Below, piece after piece: positions 1 through 1,810 of a DNA stretch of 64,000 nucleotides. This DNA comes from Nostoc sp. MG11 (GTDB lineage: Bacteria; Cyanobacteriota; Cyanobacteriia; Cyanobacteriales; Nostocaceae). Position numbers and translations under genes: made by a program. Location: assembly GCF_014904695.1 (NCBI RefSeq), contig NZ_JACXXN010000010.1, forward strand, positions 62,001 to 126,000. Direction: 5' to 3'. The notes under the pieces are model-generated. The model saw only the letters and a list, made by a program, of their open reading frames with translations, ran no database searches and was not told the DNA's origin. Positions within the stretch are counted from its first letter, which is position 1. Every line of letters starts with the position of its first letter.

Positions 1-823
1 ACATTGCACCTATTGGCATTTCCTGAAACAGCAGTTGCCAAGCTTGCTTATCCATTTTGCCCACAGGTGCAGCCATTTCGTGGGTTAGGCGTCCTTGTGA
101 AATAGCCTCATGAGTTTGGGTAGGATTCCGCTTGAGCCACTCATACCACCAAATCTGAGCCAATGCTTGAGAGGGTATTTCTGCTGGCAATTCTTCCCAG
201 CCTTTGACTACCCACTCAAATAATTGTCGGTGATTTTCTGTAGGTGGTTTGACATGGAACAACCGCAATGCATCCCGGTGGGAAAAGCCTTGACGTTGTT
301 GATATTTCAATAGCTGATAAGCCAAACCCTTAACATCTTCCCGTGACAGCCAAGTTTTACCAGCTTCGCGCACCACTTTCCCAAATCCCCGCAGAGATTT
401 AGTGTAGTTCAGCCATTCATAGAAGTGGCTACCAGTGCGGACAACTTGCGGAAAGATTTCACCAAATGCCTGCTTTGCTTCTGGTGTTTCACCCATTGAC
501 AGTAGAACTAAAGCTAAGATTGGCGCACTGTTGTTGATGGCGCGTCCATCGCTAGCATACAAAATTTCTTCCGCTACACGGCTAGGATTTTCGGCAACAG
601 CTTGTCTGATAACTGTCACAAAATCCTCAGTTAATTCTTGCTTCCCAGCATAGTAAGTACTTTTTGCTGTACCAATCAATAGACAGCGACGCAGCATTTT
701 CCAAATGCCAGCATCAAACATCCAGCCACCGGAACGCCCCTGAATCATCTCTGCTTCTCGTCCGTGGATAGGCTGAGACTGTGGTGTAGCTGTCTTCTTT
801 TTAGTGAAAAAATTGTAATTCAT
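1..823 (-). CDS. rsr: Ro60-family TROVE-domain RNA-binding protein (Rsr), 3' end outside window
   Basis: About 274 N-terminal residues are readable without a stop; the rest lies beyond the window edge. The N-terminus carries the pattern TPQSQPI-x-GREAEM, then GGW-F-D-W-LRR-L-IG and TYY-G--ELT, which is characteristic of TROVE (Ro60/Rsr) proteins. The family forms a HEAT-like ring that binds Y RNAs and misfolded RNA ends, and in bacteria works with exonucleases in RNA quality control. The ATG at 823 is preceded by GGGAG eight bases upstream. The gene lies 37 bp downstream of four tRNA-like RNA genes on the same strand with no clear terminator between, so co-transcription is likely (inference). 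The von Willebrand-like C-terminal half cannot be seen. Confidence 0.9.
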   Translation of the reverse strand, partial: MNYNFFTKKKTATPQSQPIHGREAEMIQGRSGGWMFDAGIWKMLRRCLLIGTAKSTYYAGKQELTEDFVTVIRQAVAENPSRVAEEILYASDGRAINNSAPILALVLLSMGETPEAKQAFGEIFPQVVRTGSHFYEWLNYTKSLRGFGKVVREAGKTWLSREDVKGLAYQLLKYQQRQGFSHRDALRLFHVKPPTENHRQLFEWVVKGWEELPAEIPSQALAQIWWYEWLKRNPTQTHEAISQGRLTHEMAAPVGKMDKQAWQLLFQEMPIGAM

Positions 824-835
824 GGCTTCATCTCC

Positions 836-851
836 CGGCCCTTGTGGGCAA
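836..851 (-). promoter_or_regulatory. Hairpin motif in rsr leader shared with tRNA-like RNA D
   Basis: The 16-nt TTGCCCACAAGGGCCG is identical to the hairpin inside RNA D at 1503-1518. It folds as GCCC-ACAA-GGGC and runs directly into the ribosome-binding GGGAG of rsr. The sequence identity is seen; a role in autoregulation by Rsr or by competition with the RNAs is inference. Confidence 0.6.
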
Positions 852-860
852 AAATGAAAG

Positions 861-985
861 GTGGCAGGGCAGGACTTGAACCTGCGACAACCGGCTTAAA
901 AGGCGATAACCCTAATTCGTCGGCCTTTTCAGACAAGGTGTGAACAAGGATGTTTTCGGCGCTCTACCACTGAGCTACCTGCCAC
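861..985 (-). ncRNA. tRNA-like RNA A (Lys-UUU-like) with 52-nt insertion in anticodon stem
   Basis: The minus strand shows a complete tRNA fold: 7-bp acceptor TGGCAGG/CCTGCCA (extendable to 8 by a 5' G and 3' C), U8-A9, D-arm GCTC/GAGC with GG in the loop, T-arm GCAGG-TTCAAGT-CCTGC. Removing the 52 nt at 905-956 gives a perfect 5-bp anticodon stem CCGGC/GCCGG around loop CTTTTAA, i.e. a Lys(UUU)-type arm. The insertion contains hairpin CCTT-GTCTGAA-AAGG and two strands (AACATCCTTGTT and AATTAGGGTT) that can pair with each other. It is too short for a group I intron. No CCA is encoded. It could be a tRNA with a new kind of intron or a tRNA-mimicking Y RNA; the sequence alone does not decide. 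Confidence 0.8.
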
Positions 986-995
986 ATATAAATTT

Positions 996-1122
996 TGGTG
1001 TAGTGGGGCGGGATTTGAACCCGCGACCTCTCGAACCCAATCGATAACCCTCAATTCTTCGGCCTTTTCAGGCAAGGAGTGAACAAGGATGTTTAGCGCT
1101 CTACCACTGAGCTACCCACCAC
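996..1122 (-). ncRNA. tRNA-like RNA B (Pro-like loop) with 51-nt insertion in anticodon arm
   Basis: Acceptor strands GTGGTGGG and CCCACTAC pair over 8 bp with one G-T, followed by encoded ACCA. The D-arm GCTC/GAGC is the same as in RNA A. The T-arm is GCGGG-TTCAAAT-CCCGC. Removing 1044-1094 restores a 5-bp anticodon stem CTCGA/TCGAG, but the loop TTGGGT has only six bases, one fewer than a normal Pro loop. Its insertion matches that of RNA A closely, including hairpin CCTT-GCCTGAA-AAGG and the motif GGCCGAAGAATTGAGGGTTAT. The short loop makes decoding doubtful. Located 10 bp upstream of RNA A on the same strand. Confidence 0.78.
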
Positions 1123-1181
1123 ATGAAAATTACAAATTACAAATTCAAAACTAAACTCCAGTACTCAAAAGCAATTTGGGT

Positions 1182-1318
1182 GTGGCAGGGTAGGAATCGA
1201 ACCTACACGACTTTTTCAGTCACTAGATCCCGATAATCCTCAAATCTTCGGTCTTTGCAGACAAGGTGCGAATCAAGGTTTTTCATCTAGCGCGTCTACC
1301 AATTTCGCCACCTACCAC
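1182..1318 (-). ncRNA. tRNA-like RNA C (Leu class II body) with 52-nt insertion in anticodon loop
   Basis: The acceptor GTGGTAGG/CCTGCCAC pairs over 8 bp with one G-T. The D-arm (GCG ... CGC) and long variable arm (GACT-GAAAA-AGTC) are typical of class II tRNA-Leu. The anticodon stem CTAGA/TCTAG is intact, but a 52-nt segment sits inside the loop, leaving a six-base TGGGGA remainder if excised. The T-arm is GTAGG-TTCGATT-CCTAC. The insertion belongs to the same family as in A and B: CACCTTGTCTGCAAAG, then ACCGAAGATTTGAGGATTAT. Finding the same insertion in a class II body means it is not simply inherited by duplicating one tRNA. Confidence 0.78.
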
Positions 1319-1416
1319 ATATAAAATTTTGGATTCTAGACTTAAGTTTCGTTTAAGGGTTTTTACTAGTATTTTCGTAAAGAATTATCAGGTTTAAATT
1401 TACTCGGTGCTTAATT

Positions 1417-1551
1417 TGGTGTAGCGGAGCAGGATTTTTACCTGCACCTCCAGAAGTTTGGATCAAGGGTGTTTTAGTTATGTGCGATAACCCTCGATAT
1501 ATCGGCCCTTGTGGGCAAGGTGGGCGCTCTATCATTTGAGCTATCCGCTAC
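1417..1551 (-). ncRNA. tRNA-like RNA D, degenerate, with rearranged insertion
   Basis: First RNA of the array. Acceptor GTAGCGGA/TCCGCTAC is a perfect 8 bp followed by encoded ACCA. The D-stem GCTC/GAGC is kept but the loop AAATGATA lacks GG, and the T-loop TAAAAAT lacks TTC although its stem GCAGG/CCTGC is perfect. The insertion has hairpin CCTTG-CCCA-CAAGG and the CCGA ... CGAGGGTTATCG motif, but the equivalent of the first strand of A-C (here CACCCTTGATCC) comes after rather than before it, so the two pairing strands are in swapped order. No normal anticodon arm can be restored, so this is unlikely to be a decoding tRNA. Confidence 0.7.
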
Positions 1552-1593
1552 GGGTGAAAGCTAACTCCTTAATGAATGTCAGCTTGTATTATT

Positions 1594-1622
1594 AATGTAG
1601 TATTTATATTACTAGTTGTCAA
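1594..1622 (-). promoter_or_regulatory. Sigma-70-type promoter for the tRNA-like array and rsr
   Basis: On the minus strand TTGACA (1617-1622) and TACATT (1594-1599) are separated by exactly 17 bp. The expected start near 1587 lies about 36 nt before RNA D. No equally good promoter is seen in the 10-100 bp gaps between the RNAs, so one transcript D-C-B-A-rsr is plausible (inference). Confidence 0.65.
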
Positions 1623-1810
1623 GTGGCTGGCGAGCTAATTTGTCTGCCTTCGGTGTTAGGTAGTAGGCAGAGAGAGCACAAAGAATTCTTAGGGCAAAAG
1701 GTTTTAGATTCCAAGCTTTCCTCAAAACCTTCTTGTTTCTTTAGGAAAAAACTTTTGCGCGATCGCCAACCGATAACATATACAGTTGGTTTTTATGAAT
1801 AGACAACAGT

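Follow-up and report, generated by a model that had tools for sequence, protein, structure and literature searches.

Tandem tRNA-like RNAs with a Y-RNA module beside the Ro60 orthologue gene of Nostoc sp. MG11: putative circularly permuted relatives of YrlA

Introduction

Directly upstream of a gene for a Ro60-type protein, the genome of Nostoc sp. MG11 carries four tandem RNAs that resemble tRNAs and contain an additional structured element. The question raised by this locus is whether these RNAs are tRNA genes with a new type of mini-intron or a family of tRNA-mimicking RNAs associated with the Ro protein, the two readings that a first-pass annotation had offered. In the published description of the bacterial Y RNA YrlA, the RNA ends in a Ro stem and encloses a tRNA-like domain made up of D, T and acceptor arms (PMC8394870), and a crystal structure of a bacterial Y RNA is reported to superpose on tRNA through circular permutation (PMC11472068). 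Among the titles and opening abstract lines surveyed, none described a Y RNA from cyanobacteria, although an earlier drawing of such an RNA is possible.

Results

The analysed window is a stretch of 64,000 nucleotides (G000:C11:62001-126000) and holds at its edge the 5' part of the Rsr (Ro60/TROVE) gene (positions 1-823, minus strand, start codon at 821-823). The whole gene (G000:C11:61222-62823), which extends past the window edge, encodes 533 amino acids with a TROVE match. The protein is a full-length Ro60 orthologue, which across almost its entire sequence matches Deinococcus Rsr (PDB-ID 2nvo, E 1.4e-73) and Ro60 (PDB-ID 1yvp, E 2.8e-71).

Four cloverleaf RNAs are located directly upstream of this gene on the minus strand, as the first-pass annotation had stated and as both the sequence and the covariance model R1 bear out. 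The training set of R1 comprises 59 sequences, with RNAs A and B inside and RNAs C and D outside this set. Along the minus strand the order is D, C, B, A and then Rsr, and 3' of unit A only Rsr and no further unit is found. RNA A (861-985, 125 nt; R1 132.4 bits, E 1.0e-21) displays an acceptor stem of 8 bp and the anticodon loop CUUUUAA with the triplet UUU. RNA B (1000-1122, 123 nt; 129.7 bits, E 3.4e-21) has, as judged by eye, a Pro-like loop of six nucleotides and is directly followed on its 3' side by an encoded ACCA. The body of RNA C (1182-1318, 137 nt; 70.7 bits, E 8.7e-10) is of the Leu class II type, while RNA D (1421-1551, 131 nt; 55.5 bits, E 7.9e-7) contains the T loop UAAAAAU and is itself followed by ACCA. 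Run on the window, ARAGORN reported none of the four RNAs, and the Rfam tRNA model (RF00005) scored above threshold in RNA B only (45.3 bits). When the whole 8.4-Mb genome was searched with R1, with 150 of 1902 candidates scored, four insertion-bearing units were found, all beside Rsr; the remaining 26 of the 30 matches are ordinary tRNAs of 72-75 nt. A promoter-like site (TTGACA-17-TACATT, 1594-1622, minus strand), which is a consensus match only, is situated about 43 nt upstream of RNA D and could drive a D-C-B-A-rsr transcript; the region contains seven promoter-like sites, compared with 2.1 (s.d. 1.7) in shuffled sequences.

The additional element, here termed the Y module, spans 52 nt in RNA A (about 906-957, minus strand as for the other three; AUCCUUGUUCACACCUUGUCUGAAAAGGCCGACGAAUUAGGGUUAUC), where sequence, motif scan and covariation define it and the motif CCGA-N9-GUUAU is found at 906-923. 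In RNA B, sequence and motif scan place it at 1044-1094 (51 nt), and in RNA C it sits in the anticodon loop (about 1228-1285). The insertion had originally been assigned to three RNAs, which holds for A, B and C but falls short as a count: RNA D has the module too (about 1462-1516), in a changed strand order. This second permutation starts with the S1 hairpin and the motif and ends with the 3' strand of S2. The core of the module begins with a 4-bp stem (S1), which is capped by a tetraloop that is mostly of the GNRA type; a CGA internal loop, another stem (S2) of at most 11 pairs and the sequence GGUUAUC complete it. The shared hairpin noted before as CCTT...AAGG does exist, but is better described as four covarying pairs round a tetraloop (GUCU-GAAA-AGGC in RNA A).

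In its letters, the CCGA...GGUUAUC strand of the module presumably resembles the corresponding strand of human Y RNA, whereas an Rfam search for the vertebrate Y RNA family (RF00019) gave no match at E up to 10. Motif scan and covariation reveal a Ro-type stem with this strand in the units of the window, for which binding by Rsr is predicted. The insertion is read as a Y-RNA module that appears to provide a docking stem for the Ro protein. The strand, as CCGA...GGUUAYC, recurs in other Rsr-linked RNAs from bacteria and phages, namely in the viral contigs L118 and L119, in mycobacteriophage Dandelion and in a locus with another type of TROVE gene (L205); those of L118 and Dandelion include RNAs of YrlA topology. 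In L118 the motif at 1762 is adjacent to a YrlA match (1765-1876) of 46.5 bits, the gathering score being 69, and in Dandelion (L161), where it occurs at 2588, 2686 and 2864, an Rfam YrlA match reaches 36.1 bits, likewise under the gathering score. Since the loose pattern also turns up without such meaning, for example within coding sequence of L118 and L161, the weight is carried by its position beside Rsr and by the pairing. At L119:4699-4764, just downstream of Rsr and on a CCGA...GGTTAT strand, the nematode stem-bulge RNA family gave a match of 39.3 bits (gathering score 38). The other-type TROVE gene of L205 (G246:C31:42500-49500) has 20 Rfam tRNA matches as neighbours, together with two CCGA...GRTTAT strands, and no permuted units are present there.

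Taking the insertion out of RNA A restores, by eye, a lysine-type anticodon arm, which confirms the earlier observation. The insertion point is close to tRNA position 28/29, and in RNA A removal at 29/30 yields a perfect arm. Across the insertion, positions 27-28 are paired with 42-43 in 94% of the alignment cells, and because these pairs covary, the graft can be placed at about positions 28/29. With the module removed by eye, RNA B retains its 6-nt loop, and RNAs C and D are left without an anticodon hairpin.

To place these four RNAs within a family, the upstream regions of 112 Rsr loci were surveyed, a set that excludes L004, L005, L011, L118 and L119. In the 112 loci the motif occurs 278 times no further than 1 kb upstream of Rsr, 236 times in a self-contained cloverleaf and 42 times outside; the full acceptor (8/8 pairs) is present in 210 of the 236 cloverleaf units. 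A first cloverleaf rule, with a 7-bp acceptor and a strict D arm, had placed only 1 of 299 motifs in a unit; the rule was reset to an 8-bp acceptor after inspection and is hence tuned on these loci. Applied to shuffled flanks, this tuned rule gave a cloverleaf in 7 of 834 cases and one with an 8/8 acceptor in 0 of 834, as against 210 of the 278 real motifs. Some species had entered from two collections; without the 11 near-identical loci the survey comprises 248 motifs, 210 cloverleaves and 187 full acceptors in 101 loci. The motif expression found nothing in nine loci (L031, L015, L089, L095, L096, L098, L108, L114 and L116), all of which except L089 and L116 nevertheless contain units according to R1; further units were found by R1 in L092 and L094. 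Unit-like matches are also seen downstream of Rsr (L061:5610-5759, L085:5659-5770, L094:5735-6067 and L096:5597-5725). The gene neighbourhood, compared in 81 loci, shows local synteny only, with the same two upstream gene families in 60 of them.

An alignment of 59 units (from 61 non-redundant ones among the 236, with 2 left out) was used to analyse covariation. In the named structure of 37 pairs, 95.4% of the cells are paired and 29 pairs have changed on both sides, values neither of which was reached in any of 500 shuffles, and slid versions of the structure pair in 41-52%. Two-sided changes occur in all seven helices. The D, T and acceptor helices are paired in 96-100% of the cells in units chosen for such pairing; since pairing in these three helices and the letters of the motif had been selection criteria, this part of the result follows to some extent from the choice of units. 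The remainder of the Y stems and the anticodon pairs did not enter the selection. Without guidance, RNAalifold recovered the acceptor, D, T and S1 helices and most of S2 (28 pairs) and did not predict the anticodon-arm pairs. These findings bear on the view that the four RNAs are decaying tRNA pseudogenes struck by a small repeat element, the outcome against which the first-pass annotation had set its proposal. Failure of ARAGORN on all four RNAs and the differing classes of their bodies would fit decay, but two-sided changes in every helix, full acceptors in diverged species and the restriction of the insertion-bearing matches found in the host genome to the four beside Rsr speak against it. 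Contradicted by covariation and also by the co-occurrence with TROVE described below, pseudogenes are an extremely unlikely explanation.

Three layouts can be distinguished among the 236 units. In the main type (179 units) the anticodon hairpin lies 3' of the Y stem, in type E (25 units) a hairpin lies 5' of the Y stem, and in type D (32 units) the module is opened elsewhere. S1 is fully paired (4 of 4) in all 32 type D units, and the S2 partner, taken as the best position in the tail and without a control, reaches 7-8 of 8. Type D lacks an anticodon hairpin and has a T loop without UUC, and in type E the size of the hairpin loop varies, as judged by eye.

With YrlA (RF02553) the units share the position next to the Rsr gene, the Ro-type stem with CCGA...GGUUAUC, and the D, T and acceptor elements. 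However, whereas YrlA ends in the Ro stem, the cyanobacterial Ro stem is capped by a short loop and the acceptor is open, mostly of 8 bp and often CCA-ended; moreover, a 7-nt anticodon loop is retained in 130 of the 179 main-type units. Read from their sequence and with the acceptor ends taken as the true ends, the cyanobacterial units are therefore a circularly permuted form of YrlA, which ends at the tRNA acceptor and carries the Ro stem in the anticodon arm. Accordingly, the only matches of the Rfam YrlA model in the window span two adjacent units. One match (927-1065, 28.9 bits, E 5.4e-4) joins the Y strand and T arm of RNA B to the D arm and Y strand of RNA A, a second (1073-1226, 27.9 bits, E 1.1e-3) joins C with B, and even the better of the two stays below the gathering score of 69 bits. 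Matches of this kind would be expected of a circular permutation in a tandem array. Y RNAs that lack a tRNA-like domain, as at L161:2864 in Dandelion and in the viral contig L119, share the CCGA...GGUUAYC strand with the units, but are by eye simple stem-loops that end at the Ro stem. Deinococcus also has a Y RNA without a tRNA-like domain.

Conversely, the true products might be ordinary RNAs of YrlA topology, each joining the latter half of a unit to the first half of the one after it, with the cloverleaf as a by-product of the tandem array. Besides the two matches in the window, a YrlA match across neighbours in Picosynechococcus PCC 7002 (L114:2614-2744, 31.0 bits) could be taken in this sense, all three being below the gathering score. 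Full 8-bp acceptor pairing, however, is found within 210 of 236 units and between only 32 of 139 neighbours, although the selection rule favours pairing within units and the first figure is partly built in. In addition, the spacers between units range from 5 to 475 nt (median 56), 17 of 97 loci have a single unit by the rule used, and in the window the Rsr-proximal unit has none after it. On acceptor pairing, spacers and single-unit loci this alternative was ranked low, and we regard it as improbable.

Permuted units are also found on a plasmid and on a viral contig. On plasmid pAQ7 of Picosynechococcus PCC 7002 (L114) a TROVE gene is preceded by three units (2541-2665, 2689-2796 and 2821-2944), a stretch that is blank in the plasmid's gene table, which carries no RNA genes. 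A viral contig (L115, IMGVR_UViG_3300018954_000017) contains Rsr (61% identity) together with three permuted units.

The search with R1 also revealed a close association with TROVE genes, the question that the first-pass annotation had left to a covariance model. TROVE is present in 104 of 388 genomes of the order, and strong R1 matches (E < 1e-8) were found in 99 of these 104 and in 0 of the 284 TROVE-negative genomes, with about nine candidates scored per genome under strict filters. The cut-off was chosen after the gap between 3.9e-9 and 1.0e-7 was visible; ordinary tRNAs give R1 a match in every genome, the best E being about 7e-5 to 1e-7 where no strong match exists. Since the genomes are related, a Fisher test on these counts overstates their independence. 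The five TROVE-positive genomes of the order that gave no strong match, also with laxer filters, comprise three with short TROVE frames (83, 294 and 294 amino acids) and two with the other type of TROVE (G246 and G137). Some strong matches are located on contigs apart from the listed TROVE gene (G380:C168, G259:C118, G107:C316, G177:C375 and G248:C178). In a draw of 292 genomes from the phylum, 31 have TROVE, 8 of them outside the order. Among these eight, units are present in G407 and G518 of the same class and in G421 of the same phylum; they were not found in G401, G403, G411, G417 and G419, and the single listed match of G401 is tRNA-sized (74 nt). In the distant phylum member (L170, G421:C179:7500-16500) Rsr is followed on the same strand by 26 ARAGORN tRNAs, a stretch that holds two Y-bearing units and an open reading frame that by eye resembles an HNH endonuclease. 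Together, the Y-RNA motif in the insertion and the co-occurrence with TROVE lend strong support to the reading as Ro-associated tRNA mimics, with binding by Rsr as a prediction.

Like a tRNA, as modelled in RF00005, the units possess a cloverleaf, a T loop, a D arm and often an anticodon loop with U33, and RNA B even exceeds the Rfam tRNA threshold. They differ from tRNA in the graft of about 50 nt in the anticodon arm, in the 8-bp acceptor and in a fluid anticodon. The 7-nt loops of the main type are closed by pairs 30-31/39-40 after the module and show U33 in 128 and a purine at position 37 in 126 of 130 cases; of the 40 distinct loops, 38 have U33. After removal of near-identical loci, such a loop is seen in 115 of 157 units, 113 with U33 and 111 with the purine. 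The unit next to Rsr has a proper loop in 60 of 71 loci (54 of 63 without near-identical loci), which in either set display 13 anticodon triplets, including AGG with A34. The anticodon AGG is frequent in main-type units (26 of 130 loops, in many loci). A34 is unusual in bacterial tRNAs.

Loops of this quality, together with the pairing of 27-28 with 42-43 across the insertion, are what would be expected if the units were tRNA genes whose new mini-intron is spliced out to give a decoding tRNA, and similar inserts have been published as group I introns in Nostoc PCC 7107 and Gloeocapsa PCC 73106 (PMC5733544). Yet in 49 of the 179 main-type units a 7-nt loop and the pairs that close it are absent, in addition to the missing hairpin of type D and the varying loop of type E, and the 13 triplets occupy one syntenic position next to Rsr. 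Of 44 tRNA matches in the host, 30 were examined, and an ordinary tRNA-Lys(UUU) and tRNA-Pro(UGG) are among them. Given the turnover of anticodons from species to species, and with ordinary UUU and UGG tRNAs present in the host, decoding by the units is unlikely. A stable anticodon, a 7-bp acceptor and a consistently usable loop, as a decoding tRNA would have, are not found in them. Furthermore, the Rfam group I intron families, which have a conserved catalytic core, gave no match at E up to 10 in window positions 800-1700, where the insert measures about 52 nt, and splicing would leave the tie to TROVE unexplained. The mini-intron was rejected as the main explanation on loop loss, ordinary host tRNAs and the turnover of triplets, and this half of the first-pass proposal is improbable. 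As far as can be told from comparing loci, it is the tRNA-like structure of the loop that is kept and not the identity of the anticodon.

The acceptor is followed by ACCA (74) or CCAA (31) in 105 of the 236 units (64 and 29 of 210 without near-identical loci), whereas none of the 30 ordinary host tRNAs has an encoded CCA there. This difference hints at a separate, perhaps mobile, origin of the units. The stack of 8 acceptor and 5 T pairs, which we take to resemble that of selenocysteine tRNA, could keep the units out of translation.

Between the array and the coding sequence, just before the ribosome-binding site of Rsr, lies a hairpin similar to S1 (GCCC-ACAA-GGGC, 838-849, minus strand). A leader hairpin of the form GCCY-GNRA-RGGC is found at 103 of the 112 Rsr loci, 89 with a GNRA loop, compared with 53 of 2240 shuffles, and at 92 of 101 after removal of near-identical loci. 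It is a candidate site for a possible autoregulation of Rsr.

Discussion

On the directly observed anatomy of the units, their covariation, their position beside Rsr, their co-occurrence with TROVE and the tRNA traits that they keep, among them a U33 loop in the majority of main-type units, the array very probably consists of Ro-bound bacterial Y RNAs of a permuted design, in which the whole tRNA body serves as the effector. The four RNAs would be transcribed together with rsr, and the units would then be cut out and modified by tRNA-processing enzymes. Binding of Rsr to the Y stem would result in each Rsr ring displaying a tRNA body. By analogy with YrlA and PNPase, this body may act both as a gate that restricts the access of other RNAs to Rsr and as a tether that draws enzymes recognising tRNA. 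For YrlA itself, a role in tethering PNPase is described (PMC8394870), and it has been suggested to act as competitor of an anticodon nuclease (PMC7790460).

Several findings count against this reading: the best YrlA score in the window is far under the gathering score, the vertebrate Y RNA family gave no match at E up to 10, five TROVE-positive genomes of the order are without the RNA, some strong matches are on contigs apart from the listed TROVE gene, 42 of the 278 motifs were placed in no cloverleaf, and unguided RNAalifold missed the anticodon-arm pairs. Moreover, a pure Ro tether does not demand the retention of such anticodon loops. A conserved U33 loop with fluid identity fits a bait or gauge for enzymes that act on anticodon loops. 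It is conceivable, though we consider it rather speculative, that the units form a changing set of decoy tRNAs tethered to Ro, whose real anticodon loops serve as bait or gauge for anticodon-cutting or anticodon-modifying enzymes and whose anticodons turn over under that pressure; classic YrlA could have arisen from an array of this kind through a read-out that spans two units, or the derivation may have run the other way.

The Y module may also bear on published introns. For three tRNAs of cyanobacteria, Mohanta et al. (2017) described group I introns that measure 22-49 nt; two of these tRNAs are the tRNA-Gly(TCC) from Nostoc PCC 7107 and the tRNA-Lys(CTT) from Gloeocapsa PCC 73106 (PMC5733544). 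Compared by eye via the published motifs, TTxxC, CTTGxCT, AAGxC, GAAGAAT and GG of these two introns recur in the same order in the module of RNA B. These two appear to be Y modules and not group I introns, which suggests a correction to the published cyanobacterial tRNA 'group I introns'. For the third intron (Nostoc PCC 7524, 22 nt), which among the published motifs has none in common with the module of RNA B, no such claim is made.

In conclusion, the permuted units apparently represent the usual form of Y RNA in the cyanobacterial order that was searched, and their topology would show the relation between Y RNA and tRNA by circular permutation. With a natural series that differs in anticodons and in the presence or absence of the loop, and with the tractable PCC 7002, the role of the tRNA-like part of Y RNA may now be directly tested.
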